A DNA stretch of 64,000 bases from an uncultured Hyphomicrobiales bacterium. GTDB lineage: Bacteria > Pseudomonadota > Alphaproteobacteria > Rhizobiales > Beijerinckiaceae. The stretch covers positions 1-64,000 of the forward strand of contig CAINED010000031.1 in assembly GCA_903847605.1 (NCBI GenBank), written 5' to 3'. Below the pieces are notes generated by a model. That model was not told the origin of the DNA. It ran no database searches and saw only the letters and a program-made list of their open reading frames with translations. Position numbers and translations under genes: made by a program. This document shows positions 1 to 12,933 of the stretch, piece by piece (position 1 is the stretch's first letter; every line of letters starts with the position of its first letter).

Positions 1-141
1 GATGGCGCTGAGACCGGCGCGGCCGCGTGCTTCGTTATACTCGCCCCATCCGATGACGCCTTCATCGGTGACGATCTTCAGGAAGGAATAGGTATCCCAG
101 CCGGCATCGGCGTGCATCGTCTCGAAGGCGACGATCTTCAT
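1..141 (-). CDS. Mandelate racemase/muconate lactonizing enzyme family protein, N-terminal fragment
   Basis: Only the first 47 codons lie in the window; the gene continues past its left edge. The start at 141 is supported by a GGGAGG ribosome binding site just upstream on the minus strand. The fragment begins MKIVAFETMHADAGWDTYSF and contains VTDEGVIGWGEYNEARG, the N-terminal capping-domain pattern of enolase-superfamily enzymes (a strand, then T-D-x-G-x-x-G-x-G-E). These enzymes abstract a proton alpha to a carboxylate on acid-sugar or muconate-type substrates. The catalytic barrel is outside the window, so the substrate cannot be inferred. A second member of the superfamily lies at 14947-16050. 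Confidence 0.7.
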   Translation of the reverse strand, partial: MKIVAFETMHADAGWDTYSFLKIVTDEGVIGWGEYNEARGRAGLSAI

Positions 142-196
142 TCATCCTCCCGGTCCAAGCCACGTCGCGCTGCATGGCAATTTCCGGAAGCTTACA

Positions 197-268: not shown

Positions 269-1315
269 CTAGCGGCGTTCCTCGCGGTAGATGGCGAGCT
301 TTTCCTGAGCGCTGCGGTCCGAGAAGGTGAAGATGATCGCATCCTTGGACGCGCGCATGCGACGCCAATGCCAGCTCGGGATTCCGATCACGTCGCTTTC
401 GCCGGCATGGAAGGTCTTGCCGCCGGCCTCGATTTCCACCTCGCCCTCAACGACGATGTGGGTCTGGCCGTCCGTCGCACGCATTTCCCTGGTTTCGAAG
501 CCCCTGGGGAGATGCGTAAGCCAGGCTGCGATCAGCGGCATGGGCCAGCCGCCCGTGAGCGGATTGGTGTAGCGAAGCGCATGGCCGCGATGCGGATCGG
601 GCTTGTCGGCTGCGGCCACGCCCATCAGCGCCGGGCGCGACACCGAATATTTGTAGTTGAAGATCGGCGTCGTCGCGCCGAAGGGCGACTGCGCATCGAA
701 GGGCGCCATGTTAGAAGCCCAGCGCGCATCGCTTTCGCCCTCTTTCTTCACCACCATCTGCATCTTGTCGTTCGAGTGCTCGCTGAAAGCGGTCTCGAAG
801 AAATTGATGATGTGAAGGTCGAGCCCGTCGATCCAGATCACCGGCTTGTCGTTGTTCTGGCCGTGGTCGTGCCAGGCCCAGTTCGGCGTGATGACGAAGT
901 CGCCGCGATTCATCGTCGTGCGCTCGCCGGCAACCGCCGTATATCCCATGCTGCCTTCGAGCACGAACCGAAGAGCCGATGCCGTATGGCGGTGCGCAAC
1001 GGCGATTTCGCCGGGCATGATGAGCTGCATGCCCGAATACATGGTCGCCGTGATGCGCGAGCCGCCCGGCTGGCCCGGATTTTCGAATACGAGAACGCGG
1101 CGCTCGGCCTCTTCGGCGGTCAACAGCGCGCCGGCTTCCATGAGAAGCTCGCGCGTCGGGCCGAACTTCCATTGATGCGGGACGAACTTGCTCTTGGGCT
1201 CCGGCGGCACGAGGCCCTTGAGCGCTTCCCAAAGCGGCGCGAGATTTTGCGGCGCGAGCTTGTCGTAAAATTTCTGCCGGTCCTTGCCAGGCGCTTCGGC
1301 GAGTGCGGTGCTCAT
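269..1315 (-). CDS. Gentisate 1,2-dioxygenase-like cupin ring-cleavage dioxygenase
   Basis: 348 residues, the usual length of gentisate 1,2-dioxygenases, which cleave gentisate to maleylpyruvate using ferrous iron and O2. Two cupin domains are visible. The N-terminal one has the family iron site: H108 and H110 in AHRHTASALRFVLEG and H149 in NWAWHDHG. A second cupin lies near residues 260-340 (GQTHIVVEGEVEIEAGG, then IPSWHWRR). The start at 1315 is preferred over an upstream in-frame ATG at 1351 because AAGGAG lies 7 nt ahead of it. The gene is transcribed divergently from the IclR gene at 1529 and ends in a strong terminator. No maleylpyruvate isomerase or fumarylpyruvate hydrolase is adjacent. 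A salicylate or 1-hydroxy-2-naphthoate 1,2-dioxygenase of the same family is the main alternative. Confidence 0.85.
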   Translation of the reverse strand: MSTALAEAPGKDRQKFYDKLAPQNLAPLWEALKGLVPPEPKSKFVPHQWKFGPTRELLMEAGALLTAEEAERRVLVFENPGQPGGSRITATMYSGMQLIMPGEIAVAHRHTASALRFVLEGSMGYTAVAGERTTMNRGDFVITPNWAWHDHGQNNDKPVIWIDGLDLHIINFFETAFSEHSNDKMQMVVKKEGESDARWASNMAPFDAQSPFGATTPIFNYKYSVSRPALMGVAAADKPDPHRGHALRYTNPLTGGWPMPLIAAWLTHLPRGFETREMRATDGQTHIVVEGEVEIEAGGKTFHAGESDVIGIPSWHWRRMRASKDAIIFTFSDRSAQEKLAIYREERR

Positions 1316-1528: not shown

Positions 1529-2254
1529 ATGGCCGGCTTTTCCCGTTACCGGGATATTCTGAGACTATTCGACCCGGCGCAGCCCGCCTGGACCGTGCCG
1601 GAAATTTCCGAGAGGCTGCATGTGCCCGCGAGCACCGTTTATCGCACCGTGCGCGAACTGACCGCGGCGTCGTTTCTCGAACCATCGAACGCGGCGAGCT
1701 ATCGCCTCGGATCGGCCTTCATCGAATACGACAGATTGTTGCGCCTCACCGATCCGCTGATGCAGGCGGCAGGGCCCTTCCTCGACGACATCGTGATGCA
1801 GTCCGGCATTCCCTGCATCGCGCTGCTTGCACGGCTCTATAATGGTGAAGTCATGTGCGTGGCCGATGTCGCCGGCCCCGACACGGATTTCAAATCGAGT
1901 TACGAGCGCGGCCGGCCAATGCCGTTGACGCGCGGCGCAACATCGAGGGCGATCCTTGCAAGTTTGCCCGCGCGCACGCTTGGGAAACTGGTAGGCCCAC
2001 GCGACAAGAGCGCCGCGCTGCGCGACGAGCTGATCGAGATCAGGCGCAACGGCTATTGTATCGTGACGAGCGAGATCGACGCAGGTCTCTCTGGCATTGC
2101 CGCGCCCGTCGCTTTGCCCGAGCGCAGCATCTTTGCGAGCATCAGCCTCGCCGTCCGCAACGACGATCTCGACGACAACAGACGGCGAAGACTTGCGCTG
2201 CTGGTCATGTCGGCCGCCGGCCTGATCGATGAGGCGCTCAAATCCAGCGGGTGA
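1529..2254 (+). CDS. IclR family transcriptional regulator (paralogue 1)
   Basis: 241 residues, normal for IclR proteins, which pair an N-terminal winged helix-turn-helix with a C-terminal effector-binding GAF-like domain. The recognition region (VPEISERLHVPASTVYRTV) lies near residues 23-42. The effector domain contains CIALLARLYNGEVMCVADV and SSYERGRPMPLTRGATSRA, the region that usually contacts the small-molecule inducer. The gene is divergent from the gentisate-dioxygenase-like gene. Its stop codon abuts, with no gap, the stop of the convergent molybdoenzyme small-subunit gene at 2255. It is clearly paralogous to the IclR protein at 6411. The likely effector is the aromatic substrate or a ring-cleavage product (inference). 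The ribosome binding site is weak. Confidence 0.92.
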   Translation: MAGFSRYRDILRLFDPAQPAWTVPEISERLHVPASTVYRTVRELTAASFLEPSNAASYRLGSAFIEYDRLLRLTDPLMQAAGPFLDDIVMQSGIPCIALLARLYNGEVMCVADVAGPDTDFKSSYERGRPMPLTRGATSRAILASLPARTLGKLVGPRDKSAALRDELIEIRRNGYCIVTSEIDAGLSGIAAPVALPERSIFASISLAVRNDDLDDNRRRRLALLVMSAAGLIDEALKSSG

Positions 2255-3094
2255 TCAAACCCTGATATCGCCGAGGTTGACGCTCTCGGTCACATGAGCA
2301 TCGACTGTTTTCTTCGTCTTGCCTGCCGCCTCGATTTCCAGCACATAGCTGCCCGAATTTTCCGGCAAACGATCGAATTTGAAATCGCCGTAATTGTCGC
2401 TGGCCTGTTCGGCGACTGTCTTGCCATCCTTCACAAGCCGCAACTTCGCGCCTTCGAGGCACTCGATGCGGCCACCGACGTCATGCGAGAGCGTGCCCGC
2501 GACGAATGCCGTCGAATAACGCCAGAGATTCCTGTAATAGACGCGCGGCTTGGCGTTGAGCTCGGGCTTAATCACCTCGAGATTTTCCGCTTTGGCCTTA
2601 TGCGCCATCTCTTCATCGGAAATTTTCAGAGTGACGAAAGCGCCTGTCGGACACACTTGCGAAGCGCGCGTCTTGCCCCACCCGCTGTCGATGAGGTGTG
2701 CGTCGAAATTCCAGTGCTGCGGCGTCTGCAATTCTTCGTTCCACCAGATATGGCCATAGGGACACGCTTCCACGAGTTGTTTCTGTCCCTTCGCCTTCAC
2801 AGGATCGATGAGAACGATGCCGTCCTCACGTTTCCTGATCGCGCCATCTTTCGCAACCTTGATGCACGGCGCATCGTCGCAATGATTGCACATCGTCGGC
2901 ACGTAGGCGGCGTCGAAATAGGGCGTCGTTCCCCGCTCTTTTTGCAGGATGTTGATCCAGCGATGACCGTGTTTCTGCATGGGCGCCGAATAGCCCGGCC
3001 ATTCGTTGCCCACATGCTCGTCCATTGTCGCCAGGGTGCAAAGGTTGCAATTCGTGCACTCGGCTACGTCGATGATGACATTCCACTTCGACAT
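2255..3094 (-). CDS. Iron-sulfur subunit of a pyrogallol-phloroglucinol transhydroxylase-type molybdoenzyme (AthS/RhS family)
   Basis: 279 residues in the transhydroxylase beta-subunit layout: two ferredoxin-like domains (about 1-195) followed by a C-terminal beta-sandwich/CnaB-like domain (about 196-279). Conserved family blocks include DEHVGNEWPGYSAPMQ, GHRWINI and KPRVYYRNLWRY. Cluster-ligand cysteines are C13, C16, C19, C69, C72, C77, C111 and C148. By the usual DMSO-reductase beta-subunit ligand exchange these complete two [4Fe-4S] clusters. The fourth Cys of motif I is T23, and the CxxC of motif IV is absent (QHWNFDAH), so the third cluster known from the Pelobacter enzyme is missing. 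There is no signal peptide, so the enzyme is cytoplasmic. The gene lies 24 bp downstream of the large subunit, in the same operon. Resorcinol hydroxylase small subunit is the nearest functional alternative. Confidence 0.9.
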   Translation of the reverse strand: MSKWNVIIDVAECTNCNLCTLATMDEHVGNEWPGYSAPMQKHGHRWINILQKERGTTPYFDAAYVPTMCNHCDDAPCIKVAKDGAIRKREDGIVLIDPVKAKGQKQLVEACPYGHIWWNEELQTPQHWNFDAHLIDSGWGKTRASQVCPTGAFVTLKISDEEMAHKAKAENLEVIKPELNAKPRVYYRNLWRYSTAFVAGTLSHDVGGRIECLEGAKLRLVKDGKTVAEQASDNYGDFKFDRLPENSGSYVLEIEAAGKTKKTVDAHVTESVNLGDIRV

Positions 3095-3118
3095 GTTCGT
3101 TTTCCCGTCAATTCGCGC

Positions 3119-6100
3119 TTATTTGGCAGGTTCGAGAACGGCAACTGGCTCGACAGCCTTCTTTTGCGGTTCCATGCGCGCGAATGTTTCCGACATATGT
3201 TCGATCTTGCCGTCCCATTTTTCGATCTGCACCAGCGCATTGGCGCCGGCGAGCGAATGGGTCGTCTTGGTCTGCGTCTTCTCCGGCGTCAGGAGATTGA
3301 GACAGCCGCCGCGATCCACCGACTTGCCCGGCTCGCCCATGGGATCGTAGACCGCGCAGGATTCGTAGCCGTGGCAAACGCCACGGCCCAGTCGATGCGT
3401 CGGCAGCGCAGCGCACAGAACTGCGCCACGATCGTTGAACACCTTGACGATATCGTGCTTCTTGATCCCGCGTTCGGCCGCATCTTCCGGATTCATGCGC
3501 ATGATCCAGTAGTAGTAGTCGCCGACCTTAGCCCGGTGATCCTCGATGTTCATGATGAACGAGTCCTTCCCGTCACCCTGGGTGTGGAAGGAATATTTCG
3601 CGTGCGGCGTCAGCATCTGCAGTGGAAATTTTTCGAACATCGCGCCGGAATGCTGACCTTCCCAGGAGGGCTCGTACTTGACGATTGGCGGCCGCTCCGG
3701 ATCGGCAAAGCGCTTGAGACTGTTGCACTCGAATTCCAGCTTGCCGGACTGCGTCTGCAACCCTTTGAGGAATTCTTCCGTATAGTCGGAAGGCAGCGGA
3801 TGTGGTTCCGGCACATCCTTCTTGCGGTTCTCGACGAACCACTTGAACGACAGCGGCGTGCGCAGTTTTTCCTTCTCTGCAGGCACGACATAGTAGCCGC
3901 GCTTCATGAATTCTTTCCAGGAAATCTTCTTCGGCAGGTCCGAAGCGTCGAAGTGGCGCTTGACCCAGTCGATCTCGTTCATGCCTTCCGAGAAATAGTT
4001 GGCAAGGCCGAGACGCTTGCTGATCTCGTTGAAGATCCAGTAGTCGGTCTTCGACTCGCCGAGCGGCTTGATCGCCGGCGCCTGGAAGATGATGACGCGG
4101 TGGTTGAGCTGCTGCTGGCCGTGGTGCCCATAGCCGCCGAAGCCCGCCCATTCGCTGATGTCCACGCGCTCGAAATTCGTGCAGGCCGGAAGGATGATGT
4201 CGGCGAACATCGACTCGCCTTCGTGCCAGATCGACTGGTTGACGATGAATTCGAGCTTCTCGCTCTGGTACATGCGTACATGGCGGTTGGTGTTGTTCAT
4301 CGTGCCGATGATCGAGCCGCCGTATTTGTAGAGCATTTTAACCGGCGAATGGCCCGGCGCGGGATAGGCGAATTTCGCGAACTGATGTTCGATCGACTTG
4401 CCGACCCACGGCCAGCCCTCGGCCTTGCCGTCGGCCAGCGCCTCCGGCATCCAGATGCGCGGAATGCGCTGAAACGTCGAATTCATCGTCGCGAGTTGCG
4501 GCATGCGCTGGTAGAGTTCGACCGGCATTCCCGTATTTTCCAGATCGCCGGACATGCCGCCGTCGGAATAGCCCGGGAAATAGAAATTGAAATCGAGCGG
4601 GCAGCCCCATTGCAGATTGCCCATGTTGATGCCGGGCTTGCCGAGGCCCTGCATCGCAATCAGGCACACCATCACGCGCGCCCACTGAATGCCGGTCTGA
4701 TTGCGGCACGCGCCGCCATGGCCGTTACCCCAGCCGCCCGGCGCGAGATAAACTTTCTTGCGGCCCCATTCGCGCGCCAGCGCGCGCACATCCTTGGCGG
4801 GAACGCCGGTTTCCTTCTCCTGCCATTCCGGCGTTTTGGGAACGCCGTCTTCCTTGCCGGTCAGATAGTCGGCCCATTTGTCGAAACCAACCGTGTGGGT
4901 CTTCACATACTCCTTGTCGTAAAGGCCTTCCTCGATCCACACCTGTGCTATCGCCATCGCCATGGCGACCGATGTCGTGGGCTTGGGCGCGAACCATTTG
5001 CCCGGCAGAAATTGCGCTGAGGAATTAAAGAAGGGATCGACATGCACGACCTTGATGCCGAGCTTGCCGTCCTTCAGCCACTGGCGGCGAATCGTGCCTT
5101 CCTGCGCGCCGTACGAGCCTGATGTCGTCTCGGGATCCGCGGACCAGAACACGATCATCTCGGCGTTCTGCATGCAATCCTCGACCGTTCCGTAAGTCTC
5201 GGACTGGCCGACGCGCAGGGTATGGCCCCAGTGATGCACCGCGCCCCAATACCAGCCTTCCCAGGAATCGGGATTGTGATGCACGCGCGTCATGCCGACG
5301 GCGTTGGAAAAGCGGAACAGCGCGGAAAGATAATAGCCGATATTGCCCCATGTGTGATGCGAGCCGTGCGAAACCGCAATCGAACCCGGACCGAAATCGC
5401 GCTTCATGCGCTTGATCTCGCTGGAGACGATGCTGAGAGCCTCGTCCCAGGAGATCTCGACATAACCAGACTTGCCGCGGTTCTGCGGATTGCGCGCGCC
5501 GTTCGGATCGAAGTCGACACGTTTCATCGGCTTCAGGAGGCGGTTCGGCGCATAGATGATCGACTTCGTGTTCTGCCCGTGCGGCGCAATCGTCGTGCGG
5601 CGCGGAGGAGTGAAACTGTGGCCCTTCGCCTTGATCGTCCACGGCGGCGGATCCTTGTCGTCGAAGTCGATCGGCATCATGCGGATGATCTTGTCGTCCT
5701 TCACGTCGACGAAGACCGGCCCGCCATTTGTCATGTTGCAATAACGCATCACGCCGCCCGGCATCGGCGTGCCGAATTTCCAGCCCGCCGTCTGGCTCTG
5801 CATGATCGTCTGCGCGAACCAGTTCGTCAGGTCTTCTTCGCCATCGACCGTGAGGATGAAGTCCTTCTGCGCGTTGATCTGTTCGAGCCAGTTGATCGGC
5901 GGCGTCAGCAAGCGCGCGCCATCGCCAGCGGTCTTGAAGCTCAAGGTCACGTCAGGCTTGGCATGCAGGCCCTTGCGCGAAGAGATGCGTCCGTTGCTGA
6001 TCTGGTACCAGCGTCCGATTTCCTCGTCGCGCGCCTTCACTTGTGCAACGAGATTGCGTTCCTTCAGCCGCTCGCGAAACGAAGGGTGCTGCCAAGCGGA

Positions 6101-6163
6101 AAGCTTCAACGCCTGCGCAAGACCGAACAGCACAGTCGAGAATTTCAACGTGTCGAACGACAT
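3119..6163 (-). CDS. Molybdopterin catalytic subunit of a pyrogallol-phloroglucinol transhydroxylase-type enzyme (AthL/RhL family) with N-terminal SCP2-like domain
   Basis: 1014 residues, about 140 longer than the Pelobacter acidigallici transhydroxylase large subunit (about 875). From about residue 139 ([19 protein letters not shown]) the protein follows that DMSO-reductase-superfamily enzyme along its whole length. Active-site residues are kept: H269 in SHHTWGN (Pelobacter His144), D299-S300-W301 in HNPDSWEGW (Asp174, Mo ligand Ser175, Trp176) and Y532 in YFPGY (Tyr404). As in the family, no N-terminal Fe-S motif and no Tat signal is present. Residues 1-125 are extra and resemble an SCP2 sterol-carrier domain (DVTLSF, then [16 protein letters not shown]). 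The Pelobacter enzyme moves a hydroxyl between pyrogallol and a tetrahydroxybenzene co-substrate; resorcinol hydroxylase is a relative. The true substrate here is unknown. Confidence 0.9.
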
Positions 6164-6410
6164 GCATGCCTCCCTTGGCCCGATGGGCGTTTCTTGTGGT
6201 CATAAACTAGCGGGATCGCGCAGACGCTGGAACCCGCCGGCCCCTGATCTTTCGCGCATCCGCCATTGTTGCGGCGAAAAAATCGAGCCAAGCCTCAAAA
6301 TATGAGTATCACAGGATACAAATTTCACAAAATTTTCTAAAAATGATAATTATAGTTGAATCTACATCCAAAAACAGCAATTTTAGCCGCACATTAATTC
6401 GGAGGCGCGC
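6164..6410. promoter_or_regulatory. Divergent control region between the molybdoenzyme operon and IclR paralogue 2
   Basis: 247 bp. Bases 6290-6390 are very AT-rich and contain AAAATATGAG (6297-6306) and AATTTTCT (6331-6338), shared with the region 1316-1528. A GGAGG ribosome binding site at 6401-6405 serves the IclR gene. Either paralogous regulator might bind here; no perfect palindrome is visible. Confidence 0.5.
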
Positions 6411-7232
6411 ATGGCTGGACTGGGACGCTATGTCGACGTGTTGCGCCTGTTCGACACCACAACATCAGGCGGCGCGGAAAGCTGGAGCGTCGTCGCCATG
6501 GCTTCCGCGCTCGGCGCGCCAGCCAGCACGCTCTATCGCACCGTACGGGAATTGACCAAAGCCGGATTTCTCGAACAGGCCGTTGACGCACAATATAGTC
6601 TCGGCCCGGCATTCATCGAATACGAGCGCCTGCTGCGCATCAACGATCCGCTCGTGCGGACGGGGCGCGGCATACTCGTCGACCTCGTCAGGCAGGCCGG
6701 CCTGCCCTGCGTCGCATTGATGGCGCGCCTGTATAACGGCGAAGTGATGTGCATTGCCGACGAGGCGGCGCCCGGCACAGACTTTCATTCGAGTTACGAA
6801 CGCGGCCGTCCCATGCCGATGACTCGCGGCGCAACCTCCAAGATCATCCTGGCGCACCGCCCCTCGCGTGAACTTACGAAACTCATTGGGCCACGCGCGG
6901 CAACGGTGCAATTACGTAAGGAATTACAGGCAATACGGCGTGCGGGTCATATCGTGACCGCCAGCGAAATCGATCCGGGCCTTACAGGCATCGCCGCCCC
7001 GATCATCGCCGCAGATCCCGGCGCATCGGCGAGCCTCACACTCGTGGTGAGGGAGGAAGCGCTCGACGAAGCGACGCGCCGCCGGCTCGTGCTGCTCGTC
7101 GTCTCTGCCGCAAGCCTGCTGGCAGAGGAAATCCGTGGGGCCCAAGCGGCCCCTCCCCCCGCTGAGGAAGAGAAGAAGGTTCCGCACCGCGTGCAGGTCA
7201 CATCCAGCAAATCGAAACGCCGCAAGGATTAG
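6411..7232 (+). CDS. IclR family transcriptional regulator (paralogue 2)
   Basis: 273 residues. The winged-helix region (MASALGAPASTLYRTVREL) and effector domain (CVALMARLYNGEVMCIAD, SSYERGRPMPMTRGATSK) closely match the IclR protein at 1529, so the two arose by duplication. A C-terminal tail of about 30 residues rich in Pro, Glu, Lys and Arg (ending SKSKRRKD) is absent from the paralogue. The start at 6411 has GGAGG 5 nt upstream. The gene is divergent from the molybdoenzyme operon and is its obvious candidate regulator. The amidase at 7308 follows 75 bp downstream on the same strand and could be co-transcribed. Confidence 0.92.
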   Translation: MAGLGRYVDVLRLFDTTTSGGAESWSVVAMASALGAPASTLYRTVRELTKAGFLEQAVDAQYSLGPAFIEYERLLRINDPLVRTGRGILVDLVRQAGLPCVALMARLYNGEVMCIADEAAPGTDFHSSYERGRPMPMTRGATSKIILAHRPSRELTKLIGPRAATVQLRKELQAIRRAGHIVTASEIDPGLTGIAAPIIAADPGASASLTLVVREEALDEATRRRLVLLVVSAASLLAEEIRGAQAAPPPAEEEKKVPHRVQVTSSKSKRRKD

Positions 7233-7307: not shown

Positions 7308-8759
7308 ATGTCGGACATTGCATTTTCATCGGCAAAGGATCTCGCGCGCATGGTGAGGCGCGGCAAGATCGGCTGCGTCGAATTGTTCGAACATTTTCTG
7401 GCGCGCGTCGAACGCTACAATCCCGCGCTCAACGCCATCATCGCTACCGATTTACCGCGCGCCAGAAAGCGCGCGAAAGATGCGGACCGGGCGCTGAAAA
7501 AAGGCGAGGTCTGGGGGCCATTGCACGGCGTGCCCATGACCTTCAAGGAATCCCACGATGTCGCGGGATTGCCGACGACATGGGGCGTTCCGGCCTATCG
7601 CGACGCCATCGCGAAGAAAGACGGCCTCGCCGTCAAACGATTCCTCGATGCCGGCATAAACGTCTTCGGGAAGACCAATGTGCCCTTGTTGCTGGCGGAC
7701 TCACAAAGCTGGAACCAAATCTACGGCTCGACCAACAACCCCTGGGATTTGACCCGCACGCCCGGTGGCTCGTCCGGCGGCGCGGCGGCAGCGCTCGCCG
7801 CCGGGCTCACCGGCCTCGAATGCGGATCGGACATTGCATCCTCCATTCGCAACCCCGCGCATTTCTGTGGCCTCTTTGGTCACAAGCCTACTTGGGGAAT
7901 CTGCCCGCCGCGCGGCCACGCGATGGGCGGCGCGTTGCGGCAGACCGATATTTCCGTCATCGGCCCGCTGGCGCGCAGCGCAGAAGACTTGAAACTCGCG
8001 CTGGACGTGATGGCAGGCCCTGATGAAATCGACTCCGCGGGTCTTCGCCTCAAACTGCCTGCGCCGCGCCACAAGAATTTTCGCAAGATGAAGATCGCCG
8101 TCATCACGGACGATGCCACTGCGCCGGTCGACAAGGATTATAGCGCACTCATCCAGAAACTCGCGGACTTCCTCGCGAAGGAAGGGGCCGACATTCATCA
8201 TAATACGAAACCGGACATCGACATGGATGACGCGCATCGCACGTTCGACATCATGCTGCGGGCCGCAACGTCAGGCCGCAACCCCGACTCTGCCTATGGT
8301 GAGGCGCTGGATCGCGCAGCGCAACTCGATCTCGACGACGACAGCGTCCAGGCGCGCGGCTTGCGTGGCGCAACCATCCGCCACCGCGACTGGCTGCGCC
8401 TCGACGAGAAGCGCACCGCGATGCGCTGGAAGTGGCACGAATTCTTTGGGGACTTCGACCTTCTGCTCGCGCCTGTCATGAGCACGGCGGCCTTCCCGCA
8501 CGATCACAAGCCATCCTACGAACGTGTCTCCACGATCAACGGCAAGGAATATCCCGCCATGATGGAGACTTTCTGGGCGGGTTATACCGGCCTCGTTTAT
8601 CTGCCCGCCAGCGTCGCGCCCATTGGCTTTACAGCGAAGGGCCTGCCGGTTGGCGTTCAGATTGTCGGACCGCAATATGGCGACCGCTCGACGATCCACT
8701 TCGCGCGGATGCTGGAGAAGGCCTATCAAGGCTTTCTGCCGCCGCCAGGCTACGACTGA
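7308..8759 (+). CDS. Amidase signature family hydrolase
   Basis: 483 residues with the Ser-cisSer-Lys layout of amidase-signature enzymes, which hydrolyse amides of very varied structure. The Lys is K80 (PMTFKESHD), the cis-Ser is S155 in TPGGSSGG, and the presumed nucleophile is S179 in GSDIASSIRNPA. The usual GGSIR around the nucleophile reads ASSIR here, an unusual oxyanion-region change, although the nucleophile itself is kept. The start at 7308 is chosen over a longer frame because GGAGG lies immediately upstream. The gene converges with the SulP gene, leaving an 8-bp gap. There is no signal peptide, so the enzyme is cytoplasmic. The substrate is unknown; glutamyl-tRNA amidotransferase GatA is unlikely because no gatB or gatC is nearby. 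Confidence 0.88.
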   Translation: MSDIAFSSAKDLARMVRRGKIGCVELFEHFLARVERYNPALNAIIATDLPRARKRAKDADRALKKGEVWGPLHGVPMTFKESHDVAGLPTTWGVPAYRDAIAKKDGLAVKRFLDAGINVFGKTNVPLLLADSQSWNQIYGSTNNPWDLTRTPGGSSGGAAAALAAGLTGLECGSDIASSIRNPAHFCGLFGHKPTWGICPPRGHAMGGALRQTDISVIGPLARSAEDLKLALDVMAGPDEIDSAGLRLKLPAPRHKNFRKMKIAVITDDATAPVDKDYSALIQKLADFLAKEGADIHHNTKPDIDMDDAHRTFDIMLRAATSGRNPDSAYGEALDRAAQLDLDDDSVQARGLRGATIRHRDWLRLDEKRTAMRWKWHEFFGDFDLLLAPVMSTAAFPHDHKPSYERVSTINGKEYPAMMETFWAGYTGLVYLPASVAPIGFTAKGLPVGVQIVGPQYGDRSTIHFARMLEKAYQGFLPPPGYD

Positions 8760-8767
8760 CATGCGGT

Positions 8768-11065
8768 TCACCGCGCGAGGATCGTGATCTCGCGATTGGC
8801 GAATTCGAGCCGGTCGGCAAGCACGTGAATCACGAATTCATAGAAGGATGCGGCGAGCTTGGGATCGTCGGCCAGCATGCGCTCGAAATTCTTGCGATCC
8901 AGTGTGAAGATCACAGCAGGTCCATCCGCGACGACGGTAGCGGATCGCGATTGTTGACGGAAAAATCCCATCTCGCCCACGATGCTATGCGTTGCAAGCC
9001 GCCGCACGCGAAGCCGCTTGCCGCTTCCATCATCAATTTCAATGGCGAGATTGCCTTGCGCGATGAAATCGATGGAGTCGGCGGGATCTCCTTGCCGATA
9101 CAGCACCGAAGACGGCCGCAGGAATCGCCTCTCAAGATAGGAGAGGAGAAAGTCCGGCCGTATCCAGTTGCCGAGCTGGCTCGCAAGCCAGACGGGAATC
9201 TTGTCTTCCACCATTTCCTCGACCTGGGCGCGCTCCTTCAGGAGCTCTTCCTCGCACCATTCCAGCGCCGCGTTGCGGTCGTTGAAACTACGATGCGGAC
9301 TTTTCGGGCCGAAGAAGCCGTCTTTCTCGAGCGCAAAGCGCGCGCTTGGAACCAGCGAACTGCAGACGAGGACAATGCCCTTCTTGTCGAAATAATTTCG
9401 GAGTTTGACGAGGCTGAGCACTGCGGAAGAATCCGCGCCCGTTACCGCCGCAAAATCGATGAGAACGTAACGAACAACTCCGTCAGCACACTTTTCGACA
9501 TCGGCCTTCACCATTTGAAATATGCGATCCGACGTTCCGAAAAACACGTAGCCCGTGAGCCAATAAATCTGGATGGCTTCACCGCGCCCCCGCAGGAACT
9601 GCGCGGCTTCAAGCGACCGGTCGACATTGCTTGAAAACCCCGCCCGCGTCGTATGCCGCTTGATGGCGCTGACGCGCGCGTAACTGTAGGCGAAAACCAG
9701 ACAGGCGGCGACGCATCCCGCAAGAACGCCGACCACGTAGCCGAATTGCACGCAGATGATGGCAATGACCAGGATTAGAATGAGATCAGCCCACGACTTC
9801 TGCAGGAATGGGCGTTTGAACGCGTCGATAAGAAAGCCATAGCCGAGGTAAAGAACGAGACCTCCGACGACAAACTTTGGAACAAAGGACGGCAGATCGA
9901 AACTGAAGAGAGCGACCGCGCCGAAGATCAATGCCGTCACGACTCCACTAAATCGTGTTTGCCCCCCACCATCCTGCAGCAGACGGCTCGAACCCACCTG
10001 CACCGCGCCGGAGATGCCACCTGCCGCTCCAGCTGCCAGAGCGCCCGCGCCATGGGCGATAAATTCGCGATCGAGGTCCGCTGACGTGGACCGCATGACT
10101 TCGATGCTGGATGTCTTTGTGACGAGCGAGAGGAGCGCAACGGCGCTAGCCGCAAATATTTCCGGCGCAGTTTGCAGCAAGATTCCCGAACTGAGTCCGT
10201 TCTGGTTCCATACCGCGAGCGGCGACCAGTATGGCAAGGCTCCGATCGAAGGGATGTACCAGCCGGAGTTCGACGTCCAGAGGCCCTGCTGCCACAAAAC
10301 GGCGTTGGCCACGATGCACAGCAAAACGAGGAACAGCGACGTTACGAAAGGCGACTTGATCCACTTGCGCAATTGCAGCAACACGACGAGCAGGACGAGC
10401 GCGCCGGCAAGCATGAGAATGTCAGGCGTTCGCCATGAAGACTGCAACCCGGCCAGATCGAGGGCGCGCCCCGACGTCATGCGAATGGCGCCGGCAATCA
10501 AAAGCCACCCTGTCGCTGCGAGAAAGCCGCCGACGACGCAATAGGGCACGAAACGGAACATATAACCCCAGCGGATCGCGCCAAGGCCCAGCAGCAACAA
10601 ACCTGAAATGATCGACGCCACCCAGAAGATCAGCAGAACGCTATGGGTGACCGCAGAACCGCTGCCGCCGGCTGCCGCGACTTGCGCGCCCACGGCTGCG
10701 CCAAGCAGGACGAAGACAGCGCCTGTCGGCGTATCCAGCCCTGCCGCAATCGGGGGCAACGAGGTCATCAGCGCGATGACGATGCCCGACAGGCAACTCC
10801 CGATCAGCAGGACCCACAGGACCGTCGCGACGTTACCCGCACCCGGCGGCGCCATCAGCGCAGAAAAGCCGATGATATTGCCAATGAGAACGATGGAAAC
10901 GGTGATGCCGGCGACAATGTCGCCTACAAGACCCCGCCAGTCGCGCGGAAAAAACGCGCCTATGCCCGCAAGTACAGGCGCAGTCGTGGCATTGGAATCG
11001 GGCGAACCGGTCGTTGTGGCGATCCCGGTTGGGCCGCCTTTTCCCATAGGGCCATCCTGCCGCAC
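8768..11065 (-). CDS. SulP/SLC26-family anion transporter with STAS and cyclic-nucleotide-binding domains
   Basis: About 765 residues in three parts. First is a hydrophobic transporter core of roughly a dozen membrane segments (about residues 40-465), including TPTGAVFVLLGAAVG and GAAGGISGAVQVGSS. Next is a STAS domain (about 500-610, LIDFAAVTGADSSAV). Last is a CAP-type effector domain (about 640-755) with a phosphate-binding cassette, GEMGFFRQQSRSATVVA. SulP proteins move sulfate, bicarbonate or dicarboxylates. The extra CAP-type domain suggests gating by cAMP or cGMP (inference). The start is a GTG at 11065 with AGGGGG upstream; an ATG at 11047 is possible. The protein is in the inner membrane and its substrate is unknown. 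Confidence 0.88.
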   Translation of the reverse strand: MRQDGPMGKGGPTGIATTTGSPDSNATTAPVLAGIGAFFPRDWRGLVGDIVAGITVSIVLIGNIIGFSALMAPPGAGNVATVLWVLLIGSCLSGIVIALMTSLPPIAAGLDTPTGAVFVLLGAAVGAQVAAAGGSGSAVTHSVLLIFWVASIISGLLLLGLGAIRWGYMFRFVPYCVVGGFLAATGWLLIAGAIRMTSGRALDLAGLQSSWRTPDILMLAGALVLLVVLLQLRKWIKSPFVTSLFLVLLCIVANAVLWQQGLWTSNSGWYIPSIGALPYWSPLAVWNQNGLSSGILLQTAPEIFAASAVALLSLVTKTSSIEVMRSTSADLDREFIAHGAGALAAGAAGGISGAVQVGSSRLLQDGGGQTRFSGVVTALIFGAVALFSFDLPSFVPKFVVGGLVLYLGYGFLIDAFKRPFLQKSWADLILILVIAIICVQFGYVVGVLAGCVAACLVFAYSYARVSAIKRHTTRAGFSSNVDRSLEAAQFLRGRGEAIQIYWLTGYVFFGTSDRIFQMVKADVEKCADGVVRYVLIDFAAVTGADSSAVLSLVKLRNYFDKKGIVLVCSSLVPSARFALEKDGFFGPKSPHRSFNDRNAALEWCEEELLKERAQVEEMVEDKIPVWLASQLGNWIRPDFLLSYLERRFLRPSSVLYRQGDPADSIDFIAQGNLAIEIDDGSGKRLRVRRLATHSIVGEMGFFRQQSRSATVVADGPAVIFTLDRKNFERMLADDPKLAASFYEFVIHVLADRLEFANREITILAR

Positions 11066-11164
11066 GGCGCCCCCTGCTCGTTATGCCCCGCCCCTTCGGC
11101 TCGCGCCGACACTTTCATTGTGCGCTGCTCGGGCGGGGCTGGCAACAGGGTTTGGGCGGGAATG

Positions 11165-11584
11165 TTAACGCAGGGGCTTGTAGGCCGTGCCCTTGATTTC
11201 GATCAGCAGATGCGGATGCGGTAATTGGTCGACAGCAACGGTCGTCCGCGCCGGGCCGTCGTAGTCGAAATATTCGCCGTAGGTTTCGTTGTAGCCCTTG
11301 AAGTCGTTGATGTTGACGAGAAACACGGTCACGTCGACGAGATCGGCGAGGTCAGCACCCTGCGACCTGAGAATATCCTTGATATTTTCGATGACGGCGC
11401 GCGTCTGCACGCGAATATCGAGTTCCGTATTTCCCATTTCGTCGGCTTTGGCGCCGGCGAAAGTGCCGTCAGGCTTGCGCGAGGAAATTCCGCTGACGAA
11501 CAGGAAATCGCCAGCGCGCTTCACATGTGGATATTTTCCGCGCGGCTTCGCCTTGTCTGTGAGGACCGTGGCCTTGTCGTTCAT
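11165..11584 (-). CDS. RidA/YjgF family protein, 2-aminomuconate deaminase-like
   Basis: 139 residues. The family fold is clear: [20 protein letters not shown] at the N-terminal side, then [11 protein letters not shown] and [16 protein letters not shown]. The last block, with the long N-terminal part, is typical of the 2-aminomuconate deaminases of nitrobenzoate and 2-aminophenol meta pathways (AmnD/NbaF type) rather than of housekeeping RidA, which removes reactive enamines. It is the last gene of a three-gene operon, 3 bp after the VOC gene. No 2-aminomuconate semialdehyde dehydrogenase is present, so the substrate assignment remains an inference. Confidence 0.8.
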
Positions 11585-11587
11585 GCT

Positions 11588-12043
11588 TCACTCCGTGCGG
11601 TAATTCGCCCAGAGGCCTGGCGTCGCGACCTCCAGAACGTTGCCGTCGATATCCTCGAAATAAAGACTGCGCCCGCCTTGCGGCCAGTTTACCTCGCCGG
11701 TCAAGGGAATGCCGAGATCGCCGAGCCATGAGCGCCAGGACTCGTAATTCTTTTCGTCGATACGGAAGGCGAAATGAGAGGGGCCCGTCGTCGCATGCCC
11801 CGGCACCACGCCGAAAGACGTGAGGGAGTCATCCTTGCTGAGCGCGCGCGGGAAGAGCAGCAGAACTTCCTTGGGCGCAATTGGAAAGGCATGCAGCCTT
11901 TCCTGCTTCAGCATCGGCGCGATCCCGAGGAGCCGCTCGTAGAAAGCGCTCGCGAGTGCGAGATCGTCGACATAAACGGCAGTTTCCAGAATGCCGCCGA
12001 TGGGAGGAGCAGCGCCAGTATTCGGTGTCTGCTCCGTGTTCAT
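11588..12043 (-). CDS. VOC (glyoxalase/extradiol dioxygenase superfamily) protein
   Basis: 151 residues, two beta-alpha-beta-beta-beta modules. The first begins ILETAVYVDDLALASAFYERLLG (about residue 18). The second contains SHFAFRIDE (about 95) and ends in GRSLYFEDIDGNVLEVATPGLW. This is the standard VOC pattern, with a Glu near the end as a likely metal ligand. Members include glyoxalase I, fosfomycin-type resistance proteins and small ring-cleavage enzymes; nothing here decides among them. It sits between the LigI-like hydrolase and the RidA-like gene, so a step in the same catabolic branch is plausible. Confidence 0.8.
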   Translation of the reverse strand: MNTEQTPNTGAAPPIGGILETAVYVDDLALASAFYERLLGIAPMLKQERLHAFPIAPKEVLLLFPRALSKDDSLTSFGVVPGHATTGPSHFAFRIDEKNYESWRSWLGDLGIPLTGEVNWPQGGRSLYFEDIDGNVLEVATPGLWANYRTE

Positions 12044-12048
12044 CGCCC

Positions 12049-12933
12049 TTACTTCTCGTCGAAATAGAGCCTGCCGGGATTGGTCACCAGCAACTTCAGT
12101 TGCAGTTCGGGCTCAGGCGCGAACAGCGGAATGAGATCGACGAGATCGCCGTCATTGGGCATGACCTTGACGTTCGGATGCGGCCAGTCGGTGCCCCAGA
12201 TCACGCGGTCCGGACCAGTCTCGCAGATCTTGCGCGCGAAGGGCACGGAATCCGTGAAGGGATAGCCCTTGGTGGAAACGCGCTCGGAACCACACACCTT
12301 AACCCAGCACTTTTCGTCGTCCTTCATCAGGTTGATGAGGCATTCGAACGGCTTCTGCTCCATGCCATCGCCGGCCTTCACGCGGCCCATGTGGTCGACC
12401 GTGTAGATGACCGGCAGCTTGGCCAGCATCGGCGCATAATCGGGCAGGTCGATCGCGTCGAAATGCACGTCGAGCGACCAGCCGAAATTCTTGATCTTGT
12501 CGACGACGTTGTGAAACACCTTCATGTCGGGAACGCCGCCGAGATGCGCGACAAAATTGAAGCGGCAGCCGCGGATACCGCCCGCATTCAGCTTCTCGAT
12601 GTCCTTCTCGGTGAAACTGTCATCAATGTTGGCGACCGCGCGATAGGCGCCGTTACTGGCGGCGATGGCGTCGAGGCAGACCGTATTGTCGTTGCCGTGG
12701 CAGCTCGCATTCACGATCACCGCGCGGGTCAGGCCCAGTTTGGACTGCAAGTCGCGAAACTTGTCGAGGCCGGAATCCGGCGGCGTGTAGGAGCGATCGG
12801 GCGCAAAGGGATATTTGTCGCCCGGGCCGAAGATATGGCAATGCGCATCCGTCGCATTGTGCGGAAGCTTGAATTTCGGTGTCTTGGTGTTCGGATCCGG
12901 CGGCGGAATGGTGGGGACGAAAACCTGCGCCAT
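12049..12933 (-). CDS. Amidohydrolase-superfamily lactonase/hydrolase, 2-pyrone-4,6-dicarboxylate hydrolase (LigI)-like
   Basis: 294 residues, close to LigI (about 290-300). The TIM-barrel metal and catalytic motifs are visible: DAHCHIFGPG near residue 31, VIYTVDHMGR and VIWGTDWPHPN near the end. The superfamily hydrolyses lactones and amides; LigI opens 2-pyrone-4,6-dicarboxylate in protocatechuate 4,5-cleavage. The start at 12933 is chosen because GGGAG precedes it and the longer frame has low-complexity N-terminal sequence. It is the first gene of the operon with the VOC and RidA-like genes (5-bp and 3-bp gaps). Other carboxylactonases of the same family are possible. Confidence 0.8.
   Translation of the reverse strand: MAQVFVPTIPPPDPNTKTPKFKLPHNATDAHCHIFGPGDKYPFAPDRSYTPPDSGLDKFRDLQSKLGLTRAVIVNASCHGNDNTVCLDAIAASNGAYRAVANIDDSFTEKDIEKLNAGGIRGCRFNFVAHLGGVPDMKVFHNVVDKIKNFGWSLDVHFDAIDLPDYAPMLAKLPVIYTVDHMGRVKAGDGMEQKPFECLINLMKDDEKCWVKVCGSERVSTKGYPFTDSVPFARKICETGPDRVIWGTDWPHPNVKVMPNDGDLVDLIPLFAPEPELQLKLLVTNPGRLYFDEK

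Follow-up and report, generated by a model that had tools for sequence, protein, structure and literature searches.

Why should an apparently aerobic bacterium carry a molybdenum (Mo) enzyme of the transhydroxylase type next to a dioxygenase that cleaves aromatic rings with O2? This question is raised by a 64,000-nucleotide stretch of DNA from an uncultured Hyphomicrobiales bacterium (positions 1 to 64,000 of contig CAINED010000031.1, assembly GCA_903847605.1), hereafter called the window. The hydroxylation of aromatic rings in aerobes is usually presented as the work of oxygenases, and this Mo family as belonging to anaerobic life. In the window, an operon for a small Fe-S subunit and a large Mo subunit lies close to a gentisate 1,2-dioxygenase gene, and a first-pass annotation had proposed that an anaerobic-type hydroxylation feeds aerobic ring cleavage here. 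Its view of the host as apparently aerobic fits the source genome, in which three matches to haem-copper oxidase subunit I are consistent with oxygen respiration; two of the three are incomplete, lying at contig ends, and may represent a single gene. Our comparison of the window with related loci leads to a reading that we consider probable: the operon would encode a cytoplasmic two-subunit ring hydroxylase that works independently of O2, feeds O2-dependent ring cleavage and fills the role of a flavin adenine dinucleotide (FAD) monooxygenase. Within this explanation, the reaction, the substrate, operation in oxic cells and the direction of the exchange with the FAD monooxygenase are what we infer.

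In two congeners the Mo operon stands in the place of a flavin monooxygenase gene

The large subunit was found at an identity of at least 78% in seven of 37 genomes of the source genus, the source included. Several of the 37 are incomplete metagenome-assembled genomes (MAGs; 58-100% complete). A distant match of 34% in G029 was left out of this count, and the gene is split over contigs in G012 and G019. An MhpA-type FAD monooxygenase (at least 57% identity) was present in none of the seven Mo-positive congeners and in 19 of the 30 Mo-negative ones (Fisher p 0.0031, genomes taken as independent), where a copy with an in-frame TGA (G022) and a copy in pieces (G027) were counted as positive. G012 and G019 carry only a 35-36% relative. 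Within the genus, the Mo enzyme and the FAD monooxygenase are mutually exclusive.

Both enzymes are encoded close to ring-cleavage dioxygenases. For each of the 19 flavin genes, a dioxygenase gene is found no more than 2.8 kb away (gentisate type in 8 cases, extradiol type in 11), and five of the seven Mo operons have one within 1.8 kb (three gentisate, two extradiol).

The exchange is sharpest at the extradiol locus. In G015 and G036 the extradiol gene follows the Mo operon. Loci were fetched from seven of the 13 Mo-negative congeners with an extradiol gene, and in all seven it stands beside the MhpA-type FAD monooxygenase gene, directly in four (extradiol enzymes 74-89% identical) and with an IclR gene in between in three (46-47%). 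G004, G032 and G015 share flanks on both sides, with Hsp20-like and DUF1150-like genes (named by eye) upstream and a large convergent gene and others downstream. When G015 was compared with G004 and with G032, DNA homology stopped at L031:6679-6680 and returned at 11029-11031 in both cases. The first border coincides with the end of the upstream gene, the second with the start codon (ATG) of the extradiol gene. Between them lie one flavin gene in G004 and G032 and two Mo genes in G015 (L031:7030-10978) and in G036, which is arranged like G015. The Mo genes thus occupy the place of the flavin gene in G015 and G036. At the gentisate locus of G012, homology to Mo-less congeners starts within the first codons of the dioxygenase (L029:3626), right after the Mo genes. 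Gaps of tens of bases separate Mo genes and dioxygenase in G012, G019 and G015.

The large subunit belongs to the transhydroxylase family and carries a predicted SCP2 domain

The large Mo-bis(pyranopterin guanine dinucleotide) subunit (3119-6163, minus strand; 1014 amino acids) matches pyrogallol-phloroglucinol transhydroxylase best among PDB entries (4v4c_A, 972.9 bits over residues 136-986; 53.1% identity across 842 aligned columns). The runner-up scores 245 bits and acetylene hydratase 41.3 bits. Pfam families PF00384 (Molybdopterin), PF01568 (Molydop_binding) and PF21423 (AhtL-like_1st) match above their cut-offs. Ser300 (codon at 5264-5266, minus strand), the predicted Mo ligand, as well as Asp299, Trp301, His269, Tyr277 and Tyr532 align with S175, D174, W176, H144, Y152 and Y404 of the transhydroxylase, which we take to be active-site residues, S175 being the Mo ligand. 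The assignment to the transhydroxylase/resorcinol-hydroxylase family with a conserved Mo site, as given in the first-pass annotation, was therefore borne out, and sequence comparison confirms both subunits as members of the pyrogallol transhydroxylase/resorcinol hydroxylase (AhtL/RhL) family. Two positions differ from the solved enzyme: W354 is His482 and C557 is Phe675 in the window, and the W354 position is His or Phe in the large subunits of this group. No twin-arginine motif was seen by eye at the N-terminus of the large subunit, so the enzyme is probably cytoplasmic.

Residues 1-135 precede the transhydroxylase core and are missing from the solved enzyme. This region is conserved among relatives in a 21-row alignment. 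Sequence searches with it gave nothing convincing and did not detect an SCP2 domain. An AlphaFold2 model of the domain (pLDDT, the predicted local distance difference test score, 86.3) was compared with the PDB by Foldseek. The 28 matches at E of at most 0.001 were SCP2-type proteins, UbiJ-SCP2, or alkylsulfatases and their relative YjcS, at a sequence identity of 12-20%; in the last two we presume the matched part to be their SCP2 domain, which the Foldseek listing does not name. The N-terminal domain (about residues 1-130; 5774-6163, minus strand) is thus predicted to have an SCP2 (sterol-carrier) fold.

Three other large-subunit loci show further peculiarities. On plasmid pCB3126_1 of Sinorhizobium terangae, a transposase-like open reading frame (ORF; 10562-11662, by eye) splits the large-subunit gene (L066:10058-14556), and the insertion falls between the SCP2 part and the remainder. 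In a betaproteobacterial MAG the gene is in two pieces (L057:5006-7953) with a tblastn break at about residue 473-487, a frameshift or an assembly error. Upstream of the large subunit of G008, on the same strand, lie a beta-propeller-like ORF and an 89-residue MoaD/ThiS-like ORF (L032:6464-7838; by eye).

The small subunit has lost one set of Fe-S ligands

The small subunit (2255-3094, minus strand) matches 4v4c_B best (261.7 bits; 48.0% identity across 269 columns), and the alignment with the transhydroxylase extends through the C-terminal beta domain, which is CarboxypepD_reg-like with a Pfam match below cut-off. A structure model of the subunit has a pLDDT of 77.6 and is weak at residues 21-26 and 42-67. 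In the transhydroxylase, 12 Cys form three [4Fe-4S] ligand sets. The window subunit has two complete sets and carries T, W, D and A at the positions of C23, C126, C129 and C145, respectively. The motif W128-x-F130-D131 (2702-2713, minus strand) occupies the place of C126 and C129.

To see how general this loss is, 37 distinct alpha- and betaproteobacterial rows were tallied, with L068 left out because it duplicates L047. All 37 rows keep the eight Cys of the two complete sets, and W for C126 and D for C129, with F at 128 (W-x-F-D), are equally invariant (37/37). C145 is retained in 13 rows and C23 in five. Outside this group, all 12 Cys are kept in L052, L053, L055, the distant paralogue L036 and the transhydroxylase, and L058 has D at position 23. 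Since C23 decays together with C126, C129 and C145 while C13, C16, C19 and C149 stay fixed, C23 belongs to the lost set, in agreement with the ligand-swap rule of ferredoxin folds. As judged from these alignments, the small subunit is without the ligands of one whole cluster. A tree in which the 37 rows with W and D were constrained to one clade scored 0.40 log units higher (p value of the approximately unbiased test, p-AU, 0.555); a single loss of the set is allowed, not proven. If the residues are assigned to the clusters as we assume, comparison with NarH-type subunits makes FS2 a candidate for the lost cluster. PMC8840923 describes FS2 of NarH-type subunits as the low-potential cluster between FS1 and FS3.

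Distribution and probable recruitments

At E values up to 1e-100, 4 of 397 genomes from the order carry the large subunit, as do 9 of 385 from the class and 1 of 398 from the phylum, each count including the source genome. When 84,980 species genomes were scanned with a pattern, 22 loci were obtained, including loci of magnetospirilla, a betaproteobacterium, Desulfofustis and Oscillospiraceae; four of the 22 are the same records as G008, G012, G015 and G036. Ten plasmid records were found at E up to 1e-60, nine of which cover at least 80% of the query. Eight at 51-58% identity come from Ensifer, Sinorhizobium, Rhizobium, Paraburkholderia (2), Burkholderia, Cupriavidus and Salipiger.

In a tree of 43 rows, L036 as well as the pair of the transhydroxylase and a second Desulfofustis copy stand apart from the SCP2-bearing rows. 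The window enzyme pairs with that of G012 (support 100/100), and G015 and G036 fall inside a group of eight (100/97) that excludes this pair. These separate positions make two recruitments of the Mo enzyme within the genus likely. A distant family member (34%) that begins near query residue 148 occurs in G029, G1053 and G1124 (L036, L100, L101); the small subunit of the G029 member retains all 12 Cys.

Dioxygenases and regulators as partners

The first-pass annotation had paired the Mo enzyme with the gentisate dioxygenase. This pairing turned out to be local. It is only in the window, G012 and G019 that the dioxygenase directly adjoins the Mo genes; in the latter two it comes about 60 bases after the small subunit, with no IclR gene between. 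Relatives occur in 33 of the 37 congeneric genomes, so that mere presence is uninformative, and presence at an identity of at least 67% does not track the Mo enzyme (6/7 Mo-positive versus 18/30 Mo-negative genomes, p 0.38). The same applies to the extradiol enzyme (2/7 versus 13/30, p 0.68). With adjacency in three of seven Mo-positive genomes for the former and presence in 13 Mo-negative congeners for the latter, both were ruled out as obligate partners. The extradiol enzyme is a two-domain VOC protein of type I, and its His/His/Glu positions, which we take to be the metal ligands, are conserved in all eight complete rows, one of which (L065) stems from a gene about 4 kb from its Mo operon. 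A ninth row (L030) is truncated by a contig end. VOC genes are numerous, with 9-52 PF00903 matches per genome in 16 genomes.

Two paralogous IclR regulators that each face a catabolic unit had also been noted, and this part stands for the window: regulator 1 (1529-2254, plus strand) is divergent from the dioxygenase, regulator 2 (6411-7232, plus strand) is divergent from the Mo operon, Pfam IclR_C and HTH_IclR match both above cut-offs, and they are 56% identical across 244 aligned positions. The arrangement does not extend to the Mo loci of G012 and G019, where neither is present. No similarity above that of shuffled sequences was observed when a shared operator was sought between the two IclR intergenic regions. 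In six Mo-negative congeners with a gentisate gene of 77-80% identity (L080-L085), an IclR gene (about 60%) and the FAD monooxygenase gene face the dioxygenase on the opposite strand, and a class II aldolase gene precedes the dioxygenase in L080 and L082 (hidden Markov model, HMM) and in two more by eye. Regulator 1 is 59-62% identical to the IclR proteins of L082 and L084, and regulator 2 is 59-61% identical to those of L080, L081, L083 and L085.

Loci outside the genus

The neighbourhoods of these loci were tabulated with a rough ORF caller that also yields spurious antisense ORFs, and neighbours without an HMM or BLAST match were named by eye. In G1124/G1053 and G882, the Mo operon has an extradiol gene of the G015 subfamily (40-47% identity to the G015 enzyme) at a distance of up to about 1 kb. 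On the Paraburkholderia, Burkholderia and Cupriavidus plasmids, an extradiol gene of a different subfamily (19-24% to G015-type enzymes) lies about 4-4.7 kb upstream of the Mo operon on the same strand. It is followed by a FAH hydrolase gene in all four plasmid loci; an acyl-CoA synthetase gene is found in three and an OmpW-type porin gene in at least two (by annotation or by eye). Analogy with the orcinol pathway gives the idea that this plasmid clade might serve alkylresorcinol breakdown, on which nothing to the point was found among the best literature matches. In L037, L042, L043, L044, L046 and L056, among others, no ring-cleavage gene was recognised by eye in the fetched flanks.

L048, L054, L057 and L090 have a second Mo enzyme beside the operon (74-76% identical to that of L090), which carries an Fe4S4 domain in L090. 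Pyruvate-dehydrogenase-like genes lie at L090 (HMM) and L048 (by eye). Loci of the L048/L090 type look like the anaerobic resorcinol route, and the second Mo enzyme is possibly the dehydrogenase of the anaerobic hydroxyhydroquinone route, following a remark on a Thauera homolog in an eLife 2020 article. In the seven Mo-positive congeners, a search for this second enzyme gave no full-length match above 31%, and its partial matches of 35-37% are the transhydroxylase-type gene itself.

In magnetospirilla and relatives (L049:6367-8120, L051, L048, L057), one or two small cupin genes follow the operon (by eye). In magnetospirilla, a hydroxyisobutyrate-dehydrogenase-like gene and branched-chain-type ATP-binding cassette (ABC) transporter genes also follow it (by eye).

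Proposed mechanism and alternative explanations

In the reading that we favour, the Mo enzyme would add or relocate a hydroxyl group on a phenolic ring without O2, either using water and freeing two electrons or moving the hydroxyl from a donor phenol. The product would pass to an O2-dependent ring-cleavage dioxygenase, which in the window would be the gentisate dioxygenase. The enzyme would so take the role held in sister species by the MhpA-type FAD monooxygenase, a flavin enzyme that consumes O2 and NAD(P)H. Because flavin and Mo enzymes alternate upstream of the same dioxygenase, they most simply do the same job, the making of a cleavable di- or trihydroxylated ring. The proposal of an anaerobic-type hydroxylation feeding aerobic cleavage is supported by this position of the Mo operon beside a dioxygenase, from which we infer the activity. 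A probable role of the SCP2 domain is to bind a hydrophobic phenolic substrate or to deliver it, and its predicted fold suggests that the substrate is bulky or hydrophobic, at least ancestrally. The altered Fe-S subunit may change how, or whether, electrons exit the enzyme. A polyhydroxybenzene as substrate is a guess. For the window we would guess a 3-hydroxy- or 3,5-dihydroxybenzoate-type acid that is converted to a gentisate-type product, since hydroxylation at the para position yields gentisate or the 3-hydroxy derivative of it, and hence the shape required by a gentisate dioxygenase; 2,3,5-trihydroxybenzoate is the product in Thauera. The wider claim is that an O2-consuming flavin hydroxylase was replaced more than once at the same spot by a water-using Mo hydroxylase while O2-dependent cleavage was kept, giving an oxygen-sparing hybrid pathway. 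On this claim we are evenly divided.

Several observations weigh against this reading. The congeners are related, so that the Fisher p value overstates the exclusion, and the flavin-gene search scored at most 23 candidates per genome, several of the genomes being incomplete MAGs, so that single absences may be false. G008 has a Mo operon and no dioxygenase of either type on its contig (G014 also has none by its operon, on a contig of 3.5 kb that is too short to tell). The exchange at the gentisate locus is not clean, as the class II aldolase and IclR genes differ along with the flavin gene. Neither hydroxylase is on the contig for 13 of 24 gentisate genes (at least 67% identity) and for two of 15 extradiol genes. 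Outside the genus, L102 and L063 combine a flavin monooxygenase and the Mo enzyme in one locus, and the two are hence not always alternatives. Finally, because one relay cluster is missing, the electrons of a net oxidative hydroxylation would have to take a different route.

This last point would be explained if the enzyme were a true transhydroxylase or isomerase that moves hydroxyls between phenols without net redox and still delivers its product to the dioxygenase. The damaged Fe-S relay would then reflect electrons that need not exit, one ligand set being lost with the other two intact in 37 of 37 rows, and the nearest solved relative is indeed a transhydroxylase whose aligned active-site residues are kept. 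However, the same ligand loss is observed in L048 and L090, loci of an apparently oxidative resorcinol pathway, and the W354 position is His or Phe. Moreover, a redox-neutral enzyme would not fill the slot of an oxidising flavin monooxygenase unless a hydroxyl donor were supplied. We regard this explanation as rather unlikely. We are similarly doubtful that the host is a facultative organism and the operon encodes an ordinary resorcinol- or resorcylate-type hydroxylase of the anaerobic kind that is used only under anoxia, with its proximity to dioxygenases reflecting the clustering of aromatic genes. Family members in Desulfofustis, Oscillospiraceae and magnetospirilla speak for it, as do the loci where a second Mo enzyme and dehydrogenase-like genes are present. 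On the other hand, the seven Mo-positive congeners are without a full-length match to that second enzyme above 31%, Ensifer and Paraburkholderia among the hosts are aerobes, and loose clustering hardly explains the occupation of a flavin gene's place at exact borders together with gaps of tens of bases to the dioxygenase.

A reductive dehydroxylase that removes a hydroxyl group, like the gut catechol dehydroxylases, seems very improbable. Such enzymes are of the same superfamily and act on phenols, as described in PMC7028382; in that paper their clade is separate from the transhydroxylase and has acetylene hydratase as its nearest neighbour. The window protein scores 972.9 bits to the transhydroxylase against 41.3 bits to acetylene hydratase, and its occupying the place of a hydroxylase argues for the addition of a hydroxyl.

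Other features of the window

The source genome comprises 5.34 Mb in 92 contigs. The start of the window is the end of its contig (C31), which truncates everything past the gentisate dioxygenase. All ORFs of the first-pass annotation (IclR, Fe-S subunit, Mo subunit and second IclR) were confirmed in the ORF list, and the dioxygenase sits just outside the span 1529-7232 that it covered. The gentisate 1,2-dioxygenase gene (269-1315, minus strand) matches TIGR02272 with 451.5 bits (cut-off 442.1), and its best PDB match is 2d40. Its start is the ATG at 1315 in an ORF that is open up to a TTG at 1351; counted from the ATG, the His metal motifs are HRH at residues 108-110 and HDH at 149-151. Positions 1-150 (minus strand) hold the 5' part of a mandelate racemase/muconate-lactonising (MR/MLE) family gene truncated by the contig end. 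It is 80% identical over 50 amino acids to L029_4, which is MR_MLE by HMM, and similar to L034_5. Homologous DNA also occurs in L083, and an MR/MLE gene comes after the dioxygenase in G012, G019 and G030.

On the other side, an amidase-family gene (7308-8759, plus strand; NF004816, 598.6 bits versus a cut-off of 503) is the divergent neighbour of the Mo operon in G012 and G019, too (L033, L035). Near the operon, RidA-like and VOC genes (by eye) and an amidohydrolase gene (PF04909) lie at 11165-12933. DNA 81-85% identical to the amidohydrolase region is found near the gentisate dioxygenase in G006, G021, G023 and G030, and G012 encodes a protein 96% identical to the window amidohydrolase near its amidase.

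Significance and comparison with known systems

The protein family is already known. As far as our searches show, three things are new: the lost cluster, the fusion to an SCP2 domain, and the exchange with a flavin hydroxylase at one place next to O2-dependent ring cleavage. No published account of these features was among the best matches of literature searches that were thin on subscription journals. The SCP2-fold N-terminus, the missing ligand set and the neighbouring amidase go beyond the first-pass annotation. The Mo/flavin exchange at one place within a single genus amounts to a natural experiment: it points to which step the Mo enzyme performs and makes that step testable by gene swap. 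Likewise, the lost ligand set with its fixed W-x-F-D offers a clean system for asking what role the Fe-S subunit of the family plays. If our reading is true, one O2 and one NAD(P)H would be saved and two electrons released per ring, which is expected to pay where oxygen is scarce, and the Mo enzyme serving this hybrid pathway would have an SCP2 domain of its own as substrate carrier as well as an Fe-S subunit that has been rewired.

The window enzyme resembles pyrogallol-phloroglucinol transhydroxylase in having two subunits (53% and 48% identical) and in keeping the Mo-ligand Ser as well as the aligned active-site residues. In contrast, the solved transhydroxylase has no SCP2 domain and all 12 small-subunit Cys, and the window small subunit does not have the three complete four-Cys [4Fe-4S] sets of transhydroxylase proper. 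Resorcinol hydroxylase RhL/RhS of Azoarcus anaerobius and 3,5-dihydroxybenzoate hydroxylase of Thauera aromatica AR-1, compared here by description, have the reaction type that is our best guess for the window, and these known hydroxylases may belong to the same SCP2-bearing clade. Unlike the RhL/RhS system, the window locus has a dioxygenase. We take dehydrogenase-like genes and a second Mo enzyme, the partners in the anaerobic hydroxyhydroquinone route, to be the genomic partners of RhLS. None is found among the ORFs of the locus, dehydrogenase-like genes not having been searched genome-wide. The 2023 superfamily survey (PMC10100899) groups RhL and PgtL in a single family of hydroxylating enzymes with Ser coordination, RhL being described for anaerobic respiration and PgtL for fermentation.

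The MhpA-type class A FAD monooxygenase shares the locus of the Mo enzyme and, as we read it, would catalyse the same pre-dioxygenase step with an unrelated protein. The SCP2 domains of UbiJ and of the alkylsulfatases SdsA1 and PisA1 have a fold like that predicted for the N-terminal domain of the large subunit; we know of no fusion of such domains to Mo enzymes. In aerobic breakdown of N-heteroaromatic compounds, xanthine-oxidase-type Mo hydroxylases introduce a water-derived hydroxyl before oxygen-dependent ring cleavage; they differ from the window enzyme in Mo family, substrates and cofactors.

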